DNA of 64,000 nucleotides. Origin: Stigmatella aurantiaca. Its GTDB lineage: Bacteria; Myxococcota; Myxococcia; Myxococcales; Myxococcaceae. Below the pieces are notes generated by a model. The model did no database searches and was not told where the DNA came from. It saw only the letters and a list, made by a program, of their open reading frames with translations. The position numbers and the translations under genes are program-made. The first letter of the stretch is position 1, and each line of letters starts with the position of its first letter. The DNA lies in contig NZ_FOAP01000002.1 of the NCBI RefSeq assembly GCF_900109545.1, positions 186,001 through 250,000 of the forward strand, read 5' to 3'. Positions 14,758-55,711 of the stretch are shown here, piece after piece.

Positions 14758-15264
14758 ATGACGTCGCAGCAGAGATTTGAGGACCCAGGGCAGTCCATTT
14801 ACGACTTCATGGACGAGATCCTGGTCGTGTGCCCCAGGTGCAACGGCTGCGCGCGTACGTTCCGTATCGACTCAAGCAGCAAGGACTGGTTCGCGCCTCG
14901 TCGCCTCGTATGCGCGAACTGTGGCCAGACCAAGGATTGGGCAAAGCGAGAGATCGCGCGGCAGTGGCAGGGTGAGCCAAGGGACGATTACTTTGAACTT
15001 CCGCTATGGCTTCAGGTTCCCTGCGCTGGAGAGACGCTCTGGGCTTACAATCGCGGCCACCTTGCGTTTATTGAATCGTTCGTGAGGGCAAAACACCGGG
15101 AACGGACTCGCGATCCACAGTACGGCTGGAAGAACAGCAGTCTCGCCAGCCGGGTCCCGAAGTGGATTCAGCTCGCCAAGAACAGAGCGGCACTCCTTCA
15201 AGCAATGACAAAGCTCAAGGAAAAGCTTCCTTTGGCGTGCGAAACTCGAACGAAGCTCCCTTGA
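14758..15264 (+). CDS. zinc-ribbon protein of unknown function
   Basis: A 168-residue soluble protein. VCPRCNGCARTF and VCANCGQTKDW supply two CxxC knuckles about 28 residues apart, as in a TFIIB-type zinc ribbon. The rest is basic and helical (IQLAKNRAALLQAMTKLKEKL). No enzymatic motif is visible. An internal ATG at 14809 (MDEILVVCPRC) is a possible alternative start. It diverges from the kinase gene with 74 bp between them. Its base composition is lower in GC than its neighbours, which hints at acquisition. Confidence 0.6.
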   Translation: MTSQQRFEDPGQSIYDFMDEILVVCPRCNGCARTFRIDSSSKDWFAPRRLVCANCGQTKDWAKREIARQWQGEPRDDYFELPLWLQVPCAGETLWAYNRGHLAFIESFVRAKHRERTRDPQYGWKNSSLASRVPKWIQLAKNRAALLQAMTKLKEKLPLACETRTKLP

Positions 15265-43198: not shown

Positions 43199-44275
43199 AT
43201 GTTCCTTCGTCTCAACGTGCGTGATGTGTCCCTGGCGTGTGCGTTCGCGGCCAGCGTGGTGAGCGGTTCCACGTTCGCGAGCACCATCAATCAGAACACC
43301 TCGTGGACCATCACGCGCAGCGGCTCCTCCAGCACCTACCGGGTGGTGGCTTACGGCGACTCCATCTTCGCGGGCTACAACGGGAGCCTGTTCAACGTGG
43401 CCCGCCGCGCCTCGCCCTATACCAGCGGCGAGTACCTGGCCCACAAGTGGAACGCCAACGTGGAAGTGGTCCGCCGCACCAAGTCCGGCGCCAGGGCCGA
43501 CGACATCTACAACAACAAGATCATCTCCGAGCGCTCGTACATGCAGGACGCGAAGACGCGCGTCGTGATGTTCGAGATGTGTGGCAATGACTACCTGCAG
43601 GCCCGCAGCGCGTTCTCCGAGCAGACGGGGACCTGTAGCTACAGCGGGCTGGACACGGCGCTGGCCAACTGCACCACGTACATGGAGCGGGGCATGCAGG
43701 CCATCAACCAGTACGCCACCTCCGCCAAGTCCAAGATCATCATGAACATCTACTACCCGGGCTACAACGCGGACAACGTGCAGACGGCCTGCACGGATGC
43801 GTCCACCGGGACGAAGGTGAACCGCCAGCAGAAGTTCCTGCCCTATCTGGCCAAGAGCAACTGGCGCGCGTGCAACCTGGCCGAGAAGTATGGCTTCAAG
43901 TGCGCGGACGCCTTCGCCGAGATGATGGGCTCGGACTACGACTCCAACGGCGACGGCCTGAACGACGTGGACGGGCTGCGCTACAAGAGCGGTGAGTCCG
44001 AGGCCGCCTACGTCACCCGCATCACCACCACCCTGCGCTCGACGCTCCGCGACGCCAACACGCACTACGCCAACAGCAGCACGAGCTTCGACTACATCCA
44101 GTCGGACAACACGCACCCCACCTACTTCAAGTCCACCATCGGCACGGGCTCGGGCTCGGGCGCCTCGGACTTCGCTGACAGCGCCATCTCCGGCGGCAAG
44201 CAGGCCGAGTGGAACAAGTGGGGCCACGAGAAGTCTGGCTGGTCCATCTCCACGTACAACCCGGCCACGCCGTAG
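43199..44275 (+). CDS. secreted SGNH/GDSL hydrolase (tandem copy 1)
   Basis: A 358-residue protein with a signal peptide (SLACAFAASVVSGSTFAS) and GGAGG ribosome site. SGNH blocks are clear: RVVAYGDSIFAGYNG holds the nucleophile Ser, EMCGNDYLQ the block III Asn, and SDNTHPTYF the catalytic Asp/His pair. Six or more Cys suggest disulfides outside the cell. DYDSNGDGLNDVDG looks like a calcium-binding loop. It should be an esterase or lipase-like enzyme with unknown substrate. The next gene is a close duplicate. Confidence 0.85.
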   Translation: MFLRLNVRDVSLACAFAASVVSGSTFASTINQNTSWTITRSGSSSTYRVVAYGDSIFAGYNGSLFNVARRASPYTSGEYLAHKWNANVEVVRRTKSGARADDIYNNKIISERSYMQDAKTRVVMFEMCGNDYLQARSAFSEQTGTCSYSGLDTALANCTTYMERGMQAINQYATSAKSKIIMNIYYPGYNADNVQTACTDASTGTKVNRQQKFLPYLAKSNWRACNLAEKYGFKCADAFAEMMGSDYDSNGDGLNDVDGLRYKSGESEAAYVTRITTTLRSTLRDANTHYANSSTSFDYIQSDNTHPTYFKSTIGTGSGSGASDFADSAISGGKQAEWNKWGHEKSGWSISTYNPATP

Positions 44276-44459: not shown

Positions 44460-45557
44460 ATGTCTCTTCGTCTCAACGTGCGTGATGTGTCCCTGGCCTG
44501 CGTGACCGCGGCCTCTCTGGTGGGCAGCTCCGCGTTCGCGAGCACCATCAATCAGAACACCTCGTGGACCATCAAGCGCACCAACGCCACCAGCACCTAC
44601 CGGGTGGTGGCTTACGGCGACTCCATCTTCGCGGGCTACAACGGTGGCCTGTTCAGCGTGGCCCGCCGCGCCTCGCCCTACACCAGCGGCGAGTACCTGG
44701 CCCATCAGTGGAACGCCAACGTGGAAGTGGTCCGCCGCACCAAGTCCGGTGCCAAGGCCGATGACATCTACAACAACAAGATCATTGGAGATCGCTCGTA
44801 CATGCAGGACGCGAAGACCCGCGTCGTGATGTTCGAGATGTGTGGCAATGACTACTTGCAGGCCCGCAGCGCATTCTCCGAGCAGACCGGCACGTGTAAC
44901 TACAGCGGGCTGGACACGGCGTTGGCCAACTGCACCACGTACATGGAGAAGGGCATGCAGGCCATCAACCAGTACGCCACCTCCGCCAAGTCCAAGATCA
45001 TCATGAACATCTACTACCCGGGCTACGACGCGGACAACGTGCAGACGGCCTGCACGGACGCGGCCACCGGGACGGCGGTGAACCGCCAGCAGAAGTTCCT
45101 GCCCTATCTGGCCAAGAGCAACTGGCGCACCTGCAACCTGGCCGAGAAGTACGGCTTCAAGTGCGCCGATGCCTTCGCCGAGATGATGGGCTCGGAGTAT
45201 GACTCCAACGGCGACGGCCTGAACGACGTGGACGGGCTGCGCTACAAGAGCGGCGAGTCCGAGGCGGCCTACGTCAACCGGATCACCACCGCCCTGCGCT
45301 CGACGATCCGCGACGCCAACACGCACTACGTCAACAGCAGCACGAGCTTCGACTACATCCAGTCGGACAACACGCACCCCACCTACTTCAACTCCTCCAC
45401 CATCAGCGTGAACATCTTCTCGGGCAGCGGCTCGGGCTCGGGCGCCTCGGATTTCGCCGACAGCGCCGTCTCCGGCGGCAAGCAGGCCGAGTGGAACAAG
45501 ACGGGCCACGAGAAGTCCGGCTGGTCCATCTCCACGTACAACCCGGTGGCCCCGTAG
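44460..45557 (+). CDS. secreted SGNH/GDSL hydrolase (tandem copy 2)
   Basis: A 365-residue paralogue of the preceding gene; about nine of ten residues are the same by eye. Catalytic blocks are intact (VVAYGDSIFAGYNG, EMCGNDYLQ, SDNTHPTYF). The main differences are in the signal peptide and in a seven-residue insertion that lengthens the Gly/Ser loop after the catalytic His (STISVNIFSGSGSGSGAS). The near identity shows a recent duplication or gene conversion, with both copies kept functional and each with its own promoter block. Confidence 0.85.
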   Translation: MSLRLNVRDVSLACVTAASLVGSSAFASTINQNTSWTIKRTNATSTYRVVAYGDSIFAGYNGGLFSVARRASPYTSGEYLAHQWNANVEVVRRTKSGAKADDIYNNKIIGDRSYMQDAKTRVVMFEMCGNDYLQARSAFSEQTGTCNYSGLDTALANCTTYMEKGMQAINQYATSAKSKIIMNIYYPGYDADNVQTACTDAATGTAVNRQQKFLPYLAKSNWRTCNLAEKYGFKCADAFAEMMGSEYDSNGDGLNDVDGLRYKSGESEAAYVNRITTALRSTIRDANTHYVNSSTSFDYIQSDNTHPTYFNSSTISVNIFSGSGSGSGASDFADSAVSGGKQAEWNKTGHEKSGWSISTYNPVAP

Positions 45558-48892: not shown

Positions 48893-48920
48893 AGCGGAAG
48901 CCGTAGTTTGAAATCAGAAT

Positions 48921-49850
48921 TCACCCCTGAGTTAAAGCTCCACCCACAGAGACAGTACTGTTGCTAACTTGCAATTCTGTCTTTCGACGCTCAGAAGCAT
49001 CATTAAAAATTGCTTGCAAAAGGCTTGGCAGGTCTAATGATTCCGAACTTCTCTGTTGCCTTATTATTAACATAGCCGCAGCGACGTCAATAGGAGTCTT
49101 AAGGCCTAGGTTTACTAAGAGTTCTTGGGCATTAACCGGAAGCGCATCAGCCATCAAGGCAAGAACATCAGACTCAATACGACAAGTCAATAGTCGCTCA
49201 ATGGCGAAATCCTCTGTTGTTGCCACTAACTTGCGCCAGCTATCAAGATGACGCTTACGGAAGCTAACAACATCGATACCTTGGAATCCCAACTGGGTCA
49301 TTGCTTTGTGGACGTACGCGTCAAATCGAAAAGCCTCCCAATTGCGATTCAACCTCAACTGCAATGATTCGACCAAACGTGGGCCATCAATCTCTGAATC
49401 AAGTGCATCACAGGCTGAAATGGCACCCGTAAGCACTGCAAGAACGTCCCCACTGAGTTGATTAAAGCACGCTTCCCAGTGGACTGGAGAATGGGGTGTA
49501 CCAGTCCCACAATACTGTTTGAACCATGCTTGGGCACCTCTTAGTATCTTGAGGTCGTGATCTTTCGAAAAATATAGGTTGTGGCTCGTCCATGTTCGCA
49601 ATCGCTCTACTTGTGGGAGAAGTTTATCCGAACTGCTCATGGGAGGCAGTTCTTTCAGGAAGTTCAATGGCACCTTCCCTGTTTCTTGCAGAAGCACATA
49701 AGCCCAACCTACAAGGCGAATGAACGATAGTTCATCATCTGTTCCTGCAGGTGGAAGAATCGTGATATCTGGCAATACGTTTGAACCTATATGTACGGCC
49801 AACCGTTGCCTTAACTGTATGTGCTTCACGCTAATTGCCCCGAAAGTCAT
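48921..49850 (-). CDS. 309-residue partner protein of the SIR2/STAND NTPase (unknown function)
   Basis: A soluble, mostly helical protein with no recognised domain, signal peptide or membrane segment. It starts in an ATGA overlap with the stop of the STAND gene, so translation is coupled and the two probably act together. It shares the lower GC content and codon use of that gene and differs strongly from lnt downstream. Visible text includes MTFGAISVKHIQLRQRLAVH, FRFDAYVHKAMTQLGFQGID and CRIESDVLALMADALPVNAQ. It could be a regulator, target-recognition or effector subunit of a defence system; this is inference from context. Confidence 0.65.
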   Translation of the reverse strand: MTFGAISVKHIQLRQRLAVHIGSNVLPDITILPPAGTDDELSFIRLVGWAYVLLQETGKVPLNFLKELPPMSSSDKLLPQVERLRTWTSHNLYFSKDHDLKILRGAQAWFKQYCGTGTPHSPVHWEACFNQLSGDVLAVLTGAISACDALDSEIDGPRLVESLQLRLNRNWEAFRFDAYVHKAMTQLGFQGIDVVSFRKRHLDSWRKLVATTEDFAIERLLTCRIESDVLALMADALPVNAQELLVNLGLKTPIDVAAAMLIIRQQRSSESLDLPSLLQAIFNDASERRKTELQVSNSTVSVGGALTQG

Positions 49851-51757
49851 AACTGGCCCCCATAGCGCGAAGCTAAATCGGCGATCGGCCCAAGATAGTT
49901 AAACGCTATTGCAAAGCCCTTAATCTCTCGGCCAGGCTGAAGATCCTCATTCCTGAACTCACGTTCGGCCAGATTTACGTAGCCATGTAAGCCTTCTACT
50001 CTGAGTTGCCAATGCCCCTTGCTGCGCTGCTTTTCTAAGCGGCCACGGTATAGAACAGGCTTGCCATTGGCGTTTGCTATAAAGAGTCGACGCATCATAC
50101 GAGATGCATCCTCGTACTCTGTTTCTCGTTCAAGCGCTCGCCAGAGGTCTACCGCCCTGTCTACGTCTCCACCTATCCAAGTCAGCGTTGCTTCAAGGTA
50201 GCGAAAAACGAAACGCGCACCTTCATCTGCCGCACGATTAAGCTCACGAACACTCTCAAGTATGTCTGTGCGGTTCTTGGACTCGCTTGGCAGAGGCCGA
50301 CGTTCGCCGTGCAACAGCCTACCTCCAGTTGCTGCAGCCCACTCAAGCTGTAAAAGCAAGTGCAGGCACCGAGTGTCCAAAGCTATCGCTTGGGTCCGCT
50401 CCTTGAGGAACTTTGCAGCGCTCCGGGCTCTTTGACGTGTATTCTCGGAGAACGGTTCCTTTGCCTTGCCCCCAAAGATATTGGGGCACATGGAGCGGGC
50501 TTGAAGGAAGTAGGCCACAGGTGGGTTTGAGGCTTCCAAGCGTTGGTAAGCATCTTTACCTAATTCTTCATCGCCTAACGCTGAGCCAACCTTGAACCTT
50601 CGGTTATTGAATTTCTCCTGCTGCGAAGGAGGAAGCGTGTCTATATCAACTTGATCTAGAACAGCATATATATCAGCGCGCATTTCGGAACGTCGTTCTT
50701 CAGACAAATCACTTCCGTCTTCCTCAAGAATGTCAAAAGGCGTCCAAAGGCCAACATCAAAAGGGAAGTAACTGTCAGCAATAGCCATTGCCCGAGCGAT
50801 AGCTGTCCGGGCTGCAAGGTAATCAGACCATACCGCGTCCGGTACTCCATGCGCTTTCGCTCGGCCAACCGCCAGAAATCCATAGATAGAGGCTCGCTCG
50901 ACATACAAATTTTCCTTCGTTCTACGCCCGGCCCATAGCTTTCCCTCAGAAATCTCTTGGATGGCAACTTCCACAACTTCCCGCGCATCATTTAAAACAC
51001 GATCACGCTCAGCATCATTTAACAGGATAATCGACTTATCTGAGTTGTCCTTAGTACGCAAAGCGGCTCGCCTAAACGACGATTCCTGCAACATAAGGCT
51101 CGCATCGCGCACTTGATGCCGGATGCGTAGCTTCGTAAGGGCTTCTGCGACTTTGAGGTATCCTGTAGCGTAGGCTGCACCACGAGGACCATTCCTATCA
51201 AGTTTCTGCAACAAATCTAGTAGGAACCTAATCTCAGCAGATTTGTCCACACCCTTAGGTTGTACCCCCTCAATCAATTCGATGAGGCAGGTGATCTCAC
51301 GGCCTGTATCGGCTAGGCGCCGACGGCAGAGCAACTCTGCTTCAAGTTGAAGTCTAGGGGAAATGCAAAGCTCTGCTCCCTCTTCGTCGACAAATTCCCA
51401 CCGGAATAGATCGAGATCCCAAAAGAGATAGTGTATTTGTTCTAATGCCATCGGGCCCACACGAGAATTGAGAACCCGCACGACAAGACTCACCGGCACA
51501 GGACAGTTAAGCCGTCCTGCCGCCATAATATAGTCAATGAGGCGTCCTGAAGAGTCAGAGCCGAATTCTGCTCCCTCCTGATCGTCATCAAAGATTGAGA
51601 TCGTGCCGTTATGAAGGCCTGCTTCAATGAGCTGCTCAGCAAGCATTGACCTCACTTTATTGACTGGGATACTCTTTGCTCGCTTGCGCAGTTCCTCTTC
51701 TGTTGCACGAGCCTCGCTGCTCACCCCAGAGATAATACGTGGCCGACCGGCCGACAA
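49847..51757 (-). CDS. C-terminal part of the SIR2/STAND NTPase (frame-shifted segment)
   Basis: A 636-residue frame whose only possible start is TTG with no ribosome site. In the same frame the sequence continues upstream as KKDTHVLALLYRILSAGRPR, which reads as the natural continuation of the NTPase domain of the preceding frame. I therefore treat it as the C-terminal two-thirds of one gene. It is alpha-helical throughout, with TPR-like pairs (AEAEQ-type helices such as FVFRYLEATLTWIGGDVDRA), and ends in a ~70-residue beta-rich cap (RGRLEKQRSKGHWQLRVEGL). In STAND proteins this region senses the trigger and drives assembly. Confidence 0.7.
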   Translation of the reverse strand: MSAGRPRIISGVSSEARATEEELRKRAKSIPVNKVRSMLAEQLIEAGLHNGTISIFDDDQEGAEFGSDSSGRLIDYIMAAGRLNCPVPVSLVVRVLNSRVGPMALEQIHYLFWDLDLFRWEFVDEEGAELCISPRLQLEAELLCRRRLADTGREITCLIELIEGVQPKGVDKSAEIRFLLDLLQKLDRNGPRGAAYATGYLKVAEALTKLRIRHQVRDASLMLQESSFRRAALRTKDNSDKSIILLNDAERDRVLNDAREVVEVAIQEISEGKLWAGRRTKENLYVERASIYGFLAVGRAKAHGVPDAVWSDYLAARTAIARAMAIADSYFPFDVGLWTPFDILEEDGSDLSEERRSEMRADIYAVLDQVDIDTLPPSQQEKFNNRRFKVGSALGDEELGKDAYQRLEASNPPVAYFLQARSMCPNIFGGKAKEPFSENTRQRARSAAKFLKERTQAIALDTRCLHLLLQLEWAAATGGRLLHGERRPLPSESKNRTDILESVRELNRAADEGARFVFRYLEATLTWIGGDVDRAVDLWRALERETEYEDASRMMRRLFIANANGKPVLYRGRLEKQRSKGHWQLRVEGLHGYVNLAEREFRNEDLQPGREIKGFAIAFNYLGPIADLASRYGGQL

Positions 51758-53304
51758 AATACGATAAAGCAGCGCAAGTACGTGGGTGTCTTTTTTGTAG
51801 TAGCCAGTGAACTCTGGACAAGACTTGATCCGCCGAAATTCTTAACGAGCGACTGAAGTGAACTCCGCTCTTGCGGGGATACTTCGGATTGTGCTTCCAC
51901 TATGTCTGGATTAGACGTAAGCTTATCTTTGCTGATTTCGAACCTATAGCTTGTTCCGATCACAACGATTCTGCGACCTCGACTTCGGAGCGAGTTTGCC
52001 AGATCGTAATACCGATTCGGCGCTTGATTGCTATCACAAAGAATCACCGTGACTGCTGCCTTAGCCTGCTCCGCTTCGATGCAAAACTCGTCTATGTCGG
52101 TTGCTTGAGGGATGCGGCCATTGGAATAAAGAACCGGAACTTTCACCTCTTTCCTCAGTTCATAAGCAAGCCTTGCGATAGCCACGCTTTTACCTGTTCC
52201 GGATTGTCCATGTAAAACGATGACCCGATTGCTATCGCCGTGCTTCTTTAGCGCAACCTCAAAACGCTCTCGCAGTTTTGATTCAAAGTCTCGCCGGATG
52301 GCAAATCCTCTTGCGATTCCCTCAACAAGGGTACGAGAACTCCCTAACCCGCCATGAAAGCGTTGGAATGCCTCTTGTTCTGATTCTTTGATAGGGGGCA
52401 AAAAACTAGTCCAAGTATCATCAACTACAGCAGCCGAGGCTTCAACTCTCAATCTCAGAGACGGCGAGATGACGATGAAATCTCCGTTAGCGAGAGATAC
52501 TGTGCCAGGCTCTTCCGAAGATACAATTCGCTCTAGCCCTAATACCTTTCTCGCATTCAGTTCGGCTACTACATCCACAAGCCGTCGCTCATCTATATGC
52601 AAAACACCCTTTTTCAGGAGTTCGTTAAAGAACTCAGAATTGGGAACACTTGAGAGACCGAACCAGAGAATCTGAATCTCACCAGTCATCGAAATAGGAG
52701 CAAGAAGGTCATCAATAGCCAACCAATCGCACCCGGGCACGTAGCCTTCCAGCACAAGAAGGCCAAGTGGAGTCGTAGTTTCAGCCACACGATTGACCAT
52801 GTCGGCCGCATGAACGGCCCGTTGACGCAACTCCATTCTCGATCGAGGAACTCGTGCATCAACCGTCATTTCGTCGGAGCGTCCGAAGAGATAATGGACT
52901 GGAGGACGAGAACGGCTACGCGGAACACGAGCGAAGTGCCCTTTTGAGAGTATTACTTCAGGCTGCCGCCCTCGGGTTTCTAGATGTCGAGTTAACTGAG
53001 GATCGATAGATGTGGTAAAAACGGCACTCCAAGAGAGGTCAAGTAGATCCTGCATAGCTTCAGACTGAACATTGCGGTTAAACCGTTCAGAAAGCCAATG
53101 CATATTCTCGGCGGCGAGTGTGTCGGAATCGATCAACGCAGGCCAACCGCGTGCAATCTGGTCTAAGCGGCCAAGCCGATCCAAAACCGCTGCTAAAATA
53201 GAATCCTTTTTTTCAGAAGACGACCATGCGCTCTGACCCAAAAAAAGCACGACTGGCCGTTCTTGTTCGAACGCGTTCACCAATAGCTGTTCGTTCTCTT
53301 TCAT
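51721..53304 (-). CDS. SIR2-like domain plus STAND P-loop NTPase (N-terminal segment), candidate anti-phage protein
   Basis: A 527-residue frame. Residues ~1-240 resemble defence SIR2-like domains: RPVVLFLGQSAWSSSEK in place of the GAGxS loop, LSWSAVFTTSIDPQL in place of TxNxD, and VHYLFGRSDE; the classic catalytic Asn is Ser, so NADase activity is uncertain. Residues ~345-490 are a STAND-type NTPase: Walker A VLHGQSGTGKSVAIARLAYE, Walker B TVILCDSNQ and sensor VVIGTSYRFE. The frame ends soon after an A AAA AAG heptamer, beyond which the -1 frame continues the protein to ~1150 residues. Domain order (SIR2, STAND, helical sensor) is that of known abortive-infection proteins. Confidence 0.72.
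   Translation of the reverse strand: MKENEQLLVNAFEQERPVVLFLGQSAWSSSEKKDSILAAVLDRLGRLDQIARGWPALIDSDTLAAENMHWLSERFNRNVQSEAMQDLLDLSWSAVFTTSIDPQLTRHLETRGRQPEVILSKGHFARVPRSRSRPPVHYLFGRSDEMTVDARVPRSRMELRQRAVHAADMVNRVAETTTPLGLLVLEGYVPGCDWLAIDDLLAPISMTGEIQILWFGLSSVPNSEFFNELLKKGVLHIDERRLVDVVAELNARKVLGLERIVSSEEPGTVSLANGDFIVISPSLRLRVEASAAVVDDTWTSFLPPIKESEQEAFQRFHGGLGSSRTLVEGIARGFAIRRDFESKLRERFEVALKKHGDSNRVIVLHGQSGTGKSVAIARLAYELRKEVKVPVLYSNGRIPQATDIDEFCIEAEQAKAAVTVILCDSNQAPNRYYDLANSLRSRGRRIVVIGTSYRFEISKDKLTSNPDIVEAQSEVSPQERSSLQSLVKNFGGSSLVQSSLATTKKTPTYLRCFIVFCRPVGHVLSLG
51790..51796 (-). other. A AAA AAG slippery heptamer at the STAND frame change
   Basis: On the minus strand ACA AAA AAG is read in the upstream frame, giving the classic X XXY YYZ arrangement of -1 frameshift sites such as dnaX. 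A -1 slip here continues as GAC ACC CAC, exactly the downstream frame. The downstream frame is closed by TAA at about 51845, so the shift must occur between there and this site. One extra A would also join the frames, so an indel is the main alternative. Confidence 0.55.
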
Positions 53305-53359
53305 GTTGTTTTCTCGGCTTCTGTGATGTCTTGACGGAAATATTTTTCAGTTCAGCTGA

Positions 53360-53387
53360 CTCGTAATGAAATATTCACCATTACGAG
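53360..53387 (-). promoter_or_regulatory. Palindromic operator candidate of the STAND operon
   Basis: CTCGTAATG (53360-53368) and CATTACGAG (53379-53387) are perfect 9-bp reverse complements with a 10-base spacer, 56 bp before the STAND start codon, in AT-rich DNA where the operon promoter must be. A dimeric repressor site is the simplest reading. No repressor gene is seen in the operon. Confidence 0.5.
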
Positions 53388-53888
53388 TATCCAGATTTTC
53401 ACACTTTTTAGAGAGCGAGAAACTGTCCCTCAGGTGCGAGCCTATAGCAACTCATCCTTGGGGTCGAAGCATTCTCCCTCGGAGAGTGGCGCATCAAGGG
53501 AAAGCCACGCTGCGGAGAGCCACGCTTGCATCAATGCTACCCATTACCGGAGTTTCTGCGCACCTCATCGACTCCATTGAGACTCAGAAACCCCGCGTTC
53601 TTCTCCTTGGGAGGTCCACTTCTCCTCTGCGCGTCCTGAGGCATCCCTCATTTTCACAAGCGCCCATCATAATTACTGGGGATTTTGCAGTGTCTCCCGA
53701 GCCGTAAACTCTTGAGGTTACTGGGCTTCGTTGAAGTAAAGGGGATAGCTTAGCTGCGCGTCACCACTTTAAATGCGCTCAAAGTGCGAACATGGGTAAG
53801 AGCCCGACGGCCGAGCGAAAGTGGGCAGAACGCATCATCTTCTGGTAGATGCTCAGGGCCGCCCGCTGGCCGAGAGCCAGACTAGGGC
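53388..53888. other. Non-coding spacer at island edge
   Basis: About 500 bp without a convincing gene on either strand. Short open frames here have no ribosome site or coding character. A near-repeat of GAAAGCCACGCTGCGGAGAGCCACGCTTGC type lies near 53500. It may be scar DNA left by island insertion. Confidence 0.4.
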
Positions 53889-53891
53889 TAA

Positions 53892-53970
53892 GAGTTCCTA
53901 ACAACAATCGTTTCCGAGGGGGACTTTCCCTTTGAGTGAGGGCCCCAGTCCTTATTTTTGTTAGGAACTC
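53892..53970. mobile_element. MITE-like element 1 (79 bp)
   Basis: Terminal inverted repeats GAGTTCCTAACAA and TTGTTAGGAACTC are perfect over 13 bp (16 of 17 when extended). The element is flanked by TAA at 53889-53891 and 53971-53973, a 3-bp target duplication like those of IS5-group elements. It has no coding capacity. Confidence 0.65.
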
Positions 53971-53973
53971 TAA

Positions 53974-54052
53974 GAGCCTGTTCCGGTAAGGCCCCAGGCC
54001 CCTCCTCGCCCGAGGAGCGGCCTTCCAGAGATGGACCCTACCGAAATAGGCT

Positions 54053-54053
<1 letters not shown>
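53974..54053. mobile_element. MITE-like element 2 (80 bp)
   Basis: Terminal inverted repeats GAGCCTGTTCCGGTA and TACCGAAATAGGCTC (two mismatches) are flanked by TAA at 53971-53973 and 54054-54056. It abuts element 1 and shares the middle TAA. Its right end reaches into the stop codon of the acyl-CoA dehydrogenase gene. Confidence 0.65.

Positions 54054-55711
<1,658 letters not shown>

Follow-up and report, generated by a model that had tools for sequence, protein, structure and literature searches.

Structure and surroundings of the locus

The window, that is, the whole stretch of 64,000 nucleotides analysed here (G000:C2:186001-250000, where G000 is the window's own genome of 9.37 Mb), contains at 53889-54056 two short inverted-repeat elements back to back, which direct reading resolves into TAA, 79 bp, TAA, 80 bp, and TAA; the original prediction of this order was correct to the base. 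From left to right, and without a strand being assigned, these are the outer TAA target repeat on the left side of element A (53889..53891), the 79-bp MITE-like element A (53892..53970), the TAA common to A and B (53971..53973), the 80-bp MITE-like element B (53974..54053), and the outer TAA target repeat on the right side of element B (54054..54056). All five were read directly; the common TAA was also recovered by abutment mapping, element A by an inverted-repeat finder and by its copies, and element B, which the finder missed, by its copies. Element A has the termini GAGTTCCTAACAA...TTGTTAGGAACTC, with ends of the form GAGTTCCTAAC... and terminal inverted repeats of 16/18, and element B has the termini GAGCCTGTTCCGGTA...TACCGAAATAGGCTC, with ends of the form GAGCCTRTTYCGGTA... 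and terminal inverted repeats of 15/18. The same TNA is found at a spacing of 79 bp at 8 places in the window, one of which, element A, has inverted ends of at least 15/18, and at a spacing of 80 bp at 13 places, one of which, element B, has inverted ends of at least 13/18. Moreover, whichever strand is folded, A and B form more stable structures than each of 200 dinucleotide-shuffled versions (z from -3.3 to -6.1). The sole ORF of at least 60 aa across the two elements (53779-54075, 98 aa) covers both of them and some flank.

The sequence directly left of A (53791..53882, plus strand) is a degraded fragment of a transposase gene of the type of IS-A, the full-length relative of A described below, with 78-81% identity to both full IS-A copies of G000 over 93-94 aligned positions. 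The non-coding sequence at 53635-53751, also left of A, recurs at C6, C23, and C43 of G000 with 71-75% identity. The gene right of B (54053..55711, minus strand) encodes an acyl-CoA dehydrogenase, and its TAG stop (54053-54055) takes one base, the last, from element B and the other two from the outer TAA. In the genus genomes G001, G002, and G003 the dehydrogenase gene has an lnt-like gene as its direct neighbour, whereas in the window the two genes are separated by about 5.2 kb (48893-54056) that are absent from G001-G003 and have element B as their right border; the locus thus coincides with one border of a strain-specific segment, and these three genomes do not show what the site looked like before insertion. 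The segment carries a three-gene minus-strand operon, one product of which has an nSTAND NTPase domain, and comparison of the operon with a defence library gave one weak match only (E 0.0067). Elsewhere in the window, two closely similar adjacent genes of 358 and 365 aa (43199-44275 and 44460-45557) form a tandem duplication.

The original prediction had proposed to look for empty sites in close strains, and this check failed at the locus itself: in relatives the neighbour genes abut or the flank differs. With both flanks queried, neither an empty nor a half-filled version of the A-B locus was found in the genus genomes; the right flank was present in 7/7 of them, but the sequence past it differed, and the left flank gave matches only as repeats.

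Copies and target duplications of A and B

Elsewhere in G000, element A recurs in five near-full-length copies (C42, C44, C15, C14, and C3, with 73-83% identity) and in partial matches, and element B recurs in six copies (C22, C35, C7, C6, C2:467393, and C3:249295). The A-B stretch was matched in 6/7 genus genomes at E values up to 1e-3. A scripted listing of end pairs printed 51 rows for A and B, with MITEs and full-length elements pooled. Identical flanking trinucleotides, that is, a perfect 3-bp duplication, were present in 32/51 rows and absent from the other 19, and the duplicated trinucleotide was TNA in 30 of the 32 (TTA 15, TAA 14, TCA 1), the two non-TNA flanks being TAG and TTG; this supports the proposal that A and B have the same TNA/TAA target preference. 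The preference appears to extend beyond the trinucleotide: the base after TNA was G in 18/26 duplicated copies and the base before it was C in 11/26, against a window background of about 0.24 in both cases, where the 26 copies leave out the four junction copies then known and include two (L004 and L005) that were later seen abutting element D (see below).

As direct evidence for insertion, related unfilled sites were found for element B. Two B copies (G003 C5 and G000 C22) occupy the same point of one larger repeat, and 4/4 other fetched copies of that repeat, from G000 and G003, have no B insert there; these two B copies show no TNA duplication today (flanks TAA/TTG and TAG/TAG). When the flanks of eight other copies were joined and used as queries, and matches that ran from one joined query into the next were set aside as artefacts, unfilled versions were seen at one site only, the repeat family with the two B copies. 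A B MITE of G000 (L022, C35) and a full IS-B of G003 (L144, C24) have the same approximately 13 bases beside the left TTA and differ in their right flanks.

Chance palindromes are ruled out by the copies, the duplications, and the related unfilled sites. A single-copy curiosity is likewise ruled out, both A and B being multicopy.

Full-length relatives and partner elements

Full-length IS5-type elements with A ends (IS-A) were found twice in G000, with lengths of 893 bp (C29) and 882 bp (C1), and additional 882-bp copies were present in G002. The transposase of the C29 copy is split in two frames (PF13340 and PF01609), and in the L050 copy of IS-A two frames overlap. The IS-A transposase scored 94.6 bits against PF13340 (cut-off 34.3) and 52.2 bits against PF01609 (cut-off 23), and for the first frame alone the best NCBIfam match was IS5_3 with 98.4 bits, below its cut-off of 110. 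The corresponding relative of B (IS-B) is 898 bp long with TNA flanks in G001 (L129, L134, L138, and L141) and G003 (L144) and 899 bp long in G002 (L149), and its transposase matched PF13340 above the cut-off. The start of the L134 copy of G001, GAGCCTATTTCGGTAGGG, has 18 identical terminal bases with one end of element B; further inward the two are divergent, the likeness being limited to about 18 terminal bases. No IS-B, the parent of B, was found in G000, where the B-end pattern with at most 3 mismatches gave 30 matches, a number exceeded by that of the reversed control pattern, and the B pairs among these matches lay about 80 bp apart.

Thus full-length parents with matching ends exist for A in G000 and for B in G001, G002, and G003. 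The outcome that would have refuted the original prediction, single copies with no IS of matching ends anywhere, therefore does not apply, and the claim of two different MITE-like elements was upheld: A and B are multicopy, carry no transposase, show TNA duplications, and have ends like those of full-length IS5-type elements. As far as sequence can tell, these data support A and B as MITEs, presumably non-autonomous derivatives of two different IS5-type insertion sequences.

We provisionally take IS-A and IS-B to be IS427-like, a name chosen from resemblance to Paracoccus elements rather than from ISfinder. In common with the IS427-like group of IS5, whose transposases are encoded in two frames, they have PF13340 followed by a PF01609 DDE transposase, GAG...CTC ends, a short duplication, and a length of 882-899 bp. 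They differ in the duplication, which is a 3-bp TNA here and mostly 2 bp in Paracoccus, where the accessible part of one report lists mostly 2-bp repeats for IS427-group elements of similar size (PMC3281130).

Two further elements take part in the junctions described below. Element C is another PF13340-type element of 932 bp with the ends GAGCGCGTGG. Element D has the ends GTTCGAGTTTCGCACTTTT and ranges from short forms of about 210 bp up to about 1.56 kb; the transposase of one full copy scored 388 bits against NCBIfam NF049999 IS701, passing the cut-off of 170, and also matched PF13546, so that D belongs to a transposase family other than that of A and B, yet is TNA-flanked. The flanks of D fit TNA but also a 4-bp repeat that overlaps it; in this D may differ from the IS701 family, for which the accessible text of PMC2266710 describes target duplications of precisely 4 bp in nearly all members. 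In the window, a D-like end (15/19 bases) at about 15233-15251 on the minus strand is preceded by TTC instead of TNA.

Recurrence of exact 3-bp abutments

Scripted end mapping in 266 kb located 90 ends of A, 64 of B, 32 of D, and 14 of C, 200 in all (counts that tolerate 2-4 mismatches and may include chance matches), the input being a hand-picked subset of loci fetched from seven genus genomes. Back-to-back end pairs at most 300 bp apart numbered 17, and the gap was exactly 3 bp in 11/17, the gaps of the remaining six pairs being all different. Seven of these 11 abutments join A and D (one each at G000 C14, G000 C15, and in G001, and four in G002), and the others join A with B (the window), C with B (G002), B with IS-B (G003), and D with a GAG-ended element (G000 C9), which matches B only at 3 mismatches and resembles another family on reading. 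The set of 11 includes loci fetched by junction-pattern searches: 10 abutments lie in the window or in loci from searches not asking for a junction, and the eleventh (G002 9691084) came from the A-TNA-D junction-pattern search. That pattern gave exact or near-exact junctions in G000 (2), G001 (1), and G002 (4) and a variant in G005, and its reversed control gave no match in any of 59 genomes.

Random choice of sites in five genomes would give 0.06 (TWA) to 0.97 (CTWAG) abutments against the 11 seen; this expectation uses the site density of the window only, takes the number of elements as half the end count, and leaves out the greater safety of non-coding sites, and the true value may be higher. 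The share of A-D among the abutments, 7/11, compares with 0.14 expected from end counts only and is unexplained by simple target regeneration, and we regard this excess as a lead.

Origin of the tandem

We consider it highly probable that A and B are MITEs moved in trans, that one of them lies in the TNA repeat made by the other, and that insertion doubles a C-TWA-G target. Element A would have been moved by the transposase of IS-A, which is present in G000, and element B by that of IS-B, which is known from sister genomes and was not seen in G000. The preferred target would be approximately C-TWA-G, and because G is the first base of the elements and C the last, C-TWA-G is recreated at both edges; insertion into C-TWA-G would therefore give C-TWA-G at both junctions, the target being doubled and not consumed. 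Such doubled targets may seed tandem nests of unrelated elements, including the IS701-type D, which also has G...C ends. In the window, one element, either A or B, would have used as its target the 3-bp TNA repeat that arose when the other inserted, as had been proposed, and this is the best reading of the locus, the arrangement recurring elsewhere at exact 3-bp gaps; the 11 abutments probably recur because every insertion leaves a restored target for a later one. The copies, the duplications, the relatives recognized by ends and transposase, and the recurrence of the 3-bp spacing are observed, and from these we infer the mobilisation in trans, the regeneration of the target as cause, and the existence of an order of insertion.

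Three identical TAA copies would also be expected if A-TAA-B had jumped or been copied jointly rather than by two separate insertions, and in pithoviruses two repeats with a common target dinucleotide are for the most part mobilised jointly, according to the accessible part of PMC10664404. Such a joint origin is very improbable here, since no second pair of A and B MITEs was found, either with A and B alone in G000 or with both together in the genus, the sole other A-B contact seen, in G002, pairs a full IS-A with a truncated B, and the A-D pairs differ among loci in element sizes, orientations, and D ends. We give slightly less credence still to a rearrangement in which recombination between mobile elements joined A and B at the edge of the strain-specific segment: the junction of the lnt-like and dehydrogenase genes in G001-G003, and its interruption up to B in the window, would fit, but both ends and the flanking TAA are intact on A and B, which is not usual after recombination, and the identical 3-bp spacing is found at unrelated loci.

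The A-D excess bears on a different explanation, in which the transposase of one family favours another family's ends, over and above a short target common to both. The A-TNA-D junctions in G000, G001, and G002, with the variant in G005 and the blank reversed control, point in this direction, and there is a precedent in Haloquadratum for one element class targeting others in the accessible part of PMC3119063; as an account of the locus we think it unlikely, because the window pair is A-B and not A-D and the end counts behind the excess may contain chance matches. We are similarly doubtful of a broader proposal, that the IS5-type A, B, and C and the IS701-type D have converged on one palindromic target and on ends by which it is restored, and use each other's edges as landing sites to form mixed tandem nests, with a specific partnership of A and D that exceeds the common short target.

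Comparison with known systems

The tandem of A and B is ordinary MITE biology, IS5-type MITEs at a shared target, and a new case of a known kind. Neighbouring unrelated short inverted-repeat elements with a common target repeat are described for the M1/M2 repeats of pithoviruses in the accessible part of PMC10664404, which also cites MITE multimers of rice (Jiang and Wessler 2001); the plant multimers and the pithovirus repeats have in common with our locus the adjacency of unrelated short inverted-repeat elements, and in pithoviruses the target is shared as well. The present case differs from both in that the host is a bacterium, full-length relatives have been identified, the target is a 3-bp TNA, and the partners come from two transposase families. 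Transposase-free mobile repeats of Haloquadratum walsbyi likewise insert into other mobile elements, with 192 such insertions listed, but the accessible part of that report describes insertions into elements and does not mention a target repeat shared at their edges (PMC3119063). A term search in the accessible text of the prokaryotic MITE review PMC10969869 gave neither 'tandem' nor 'nested', and literature searches in an open-access library turned up no report of bacterial MITEs in tandem at a shared target.

The noteworthy parts are the recurrence across families and the A-D excess, by which a single junction becomes a countable pattern: four families use one target sequence, and 11 junctions with a shared 3-bp sequence were counted within one genus. 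Should regeneration of the target be the cause, it would predict new insertion sites and why nests of mobile elements grow, and the pattern would be a bacterial counterpart of the MITE multimers of plants, one for which candidate source transposases are available.

Junction searches in further genomes

A pattern of a B end followed by TNA and GAG was noisy over the 59 genomes, with a similar number of matches from its reversed control. The corresponding pattern with an A end gave 40 stretches, some of which chance could give, in a scan of 84,980 named genomes. In three loci (L210, L220, and L241) the end of the second partner is matched 18/18 by an inverted mate with TAA behind it, so that this partner is apparently a complete second element. 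In other genera (L275, L282, and L274), element D abuts sequences ending GAGCTC, and in one of these loci (L282) the neighbour of D is a different short element, flanked on either side by TAA, whose ends resemble GTGCTCGTTTCAAAAATG.
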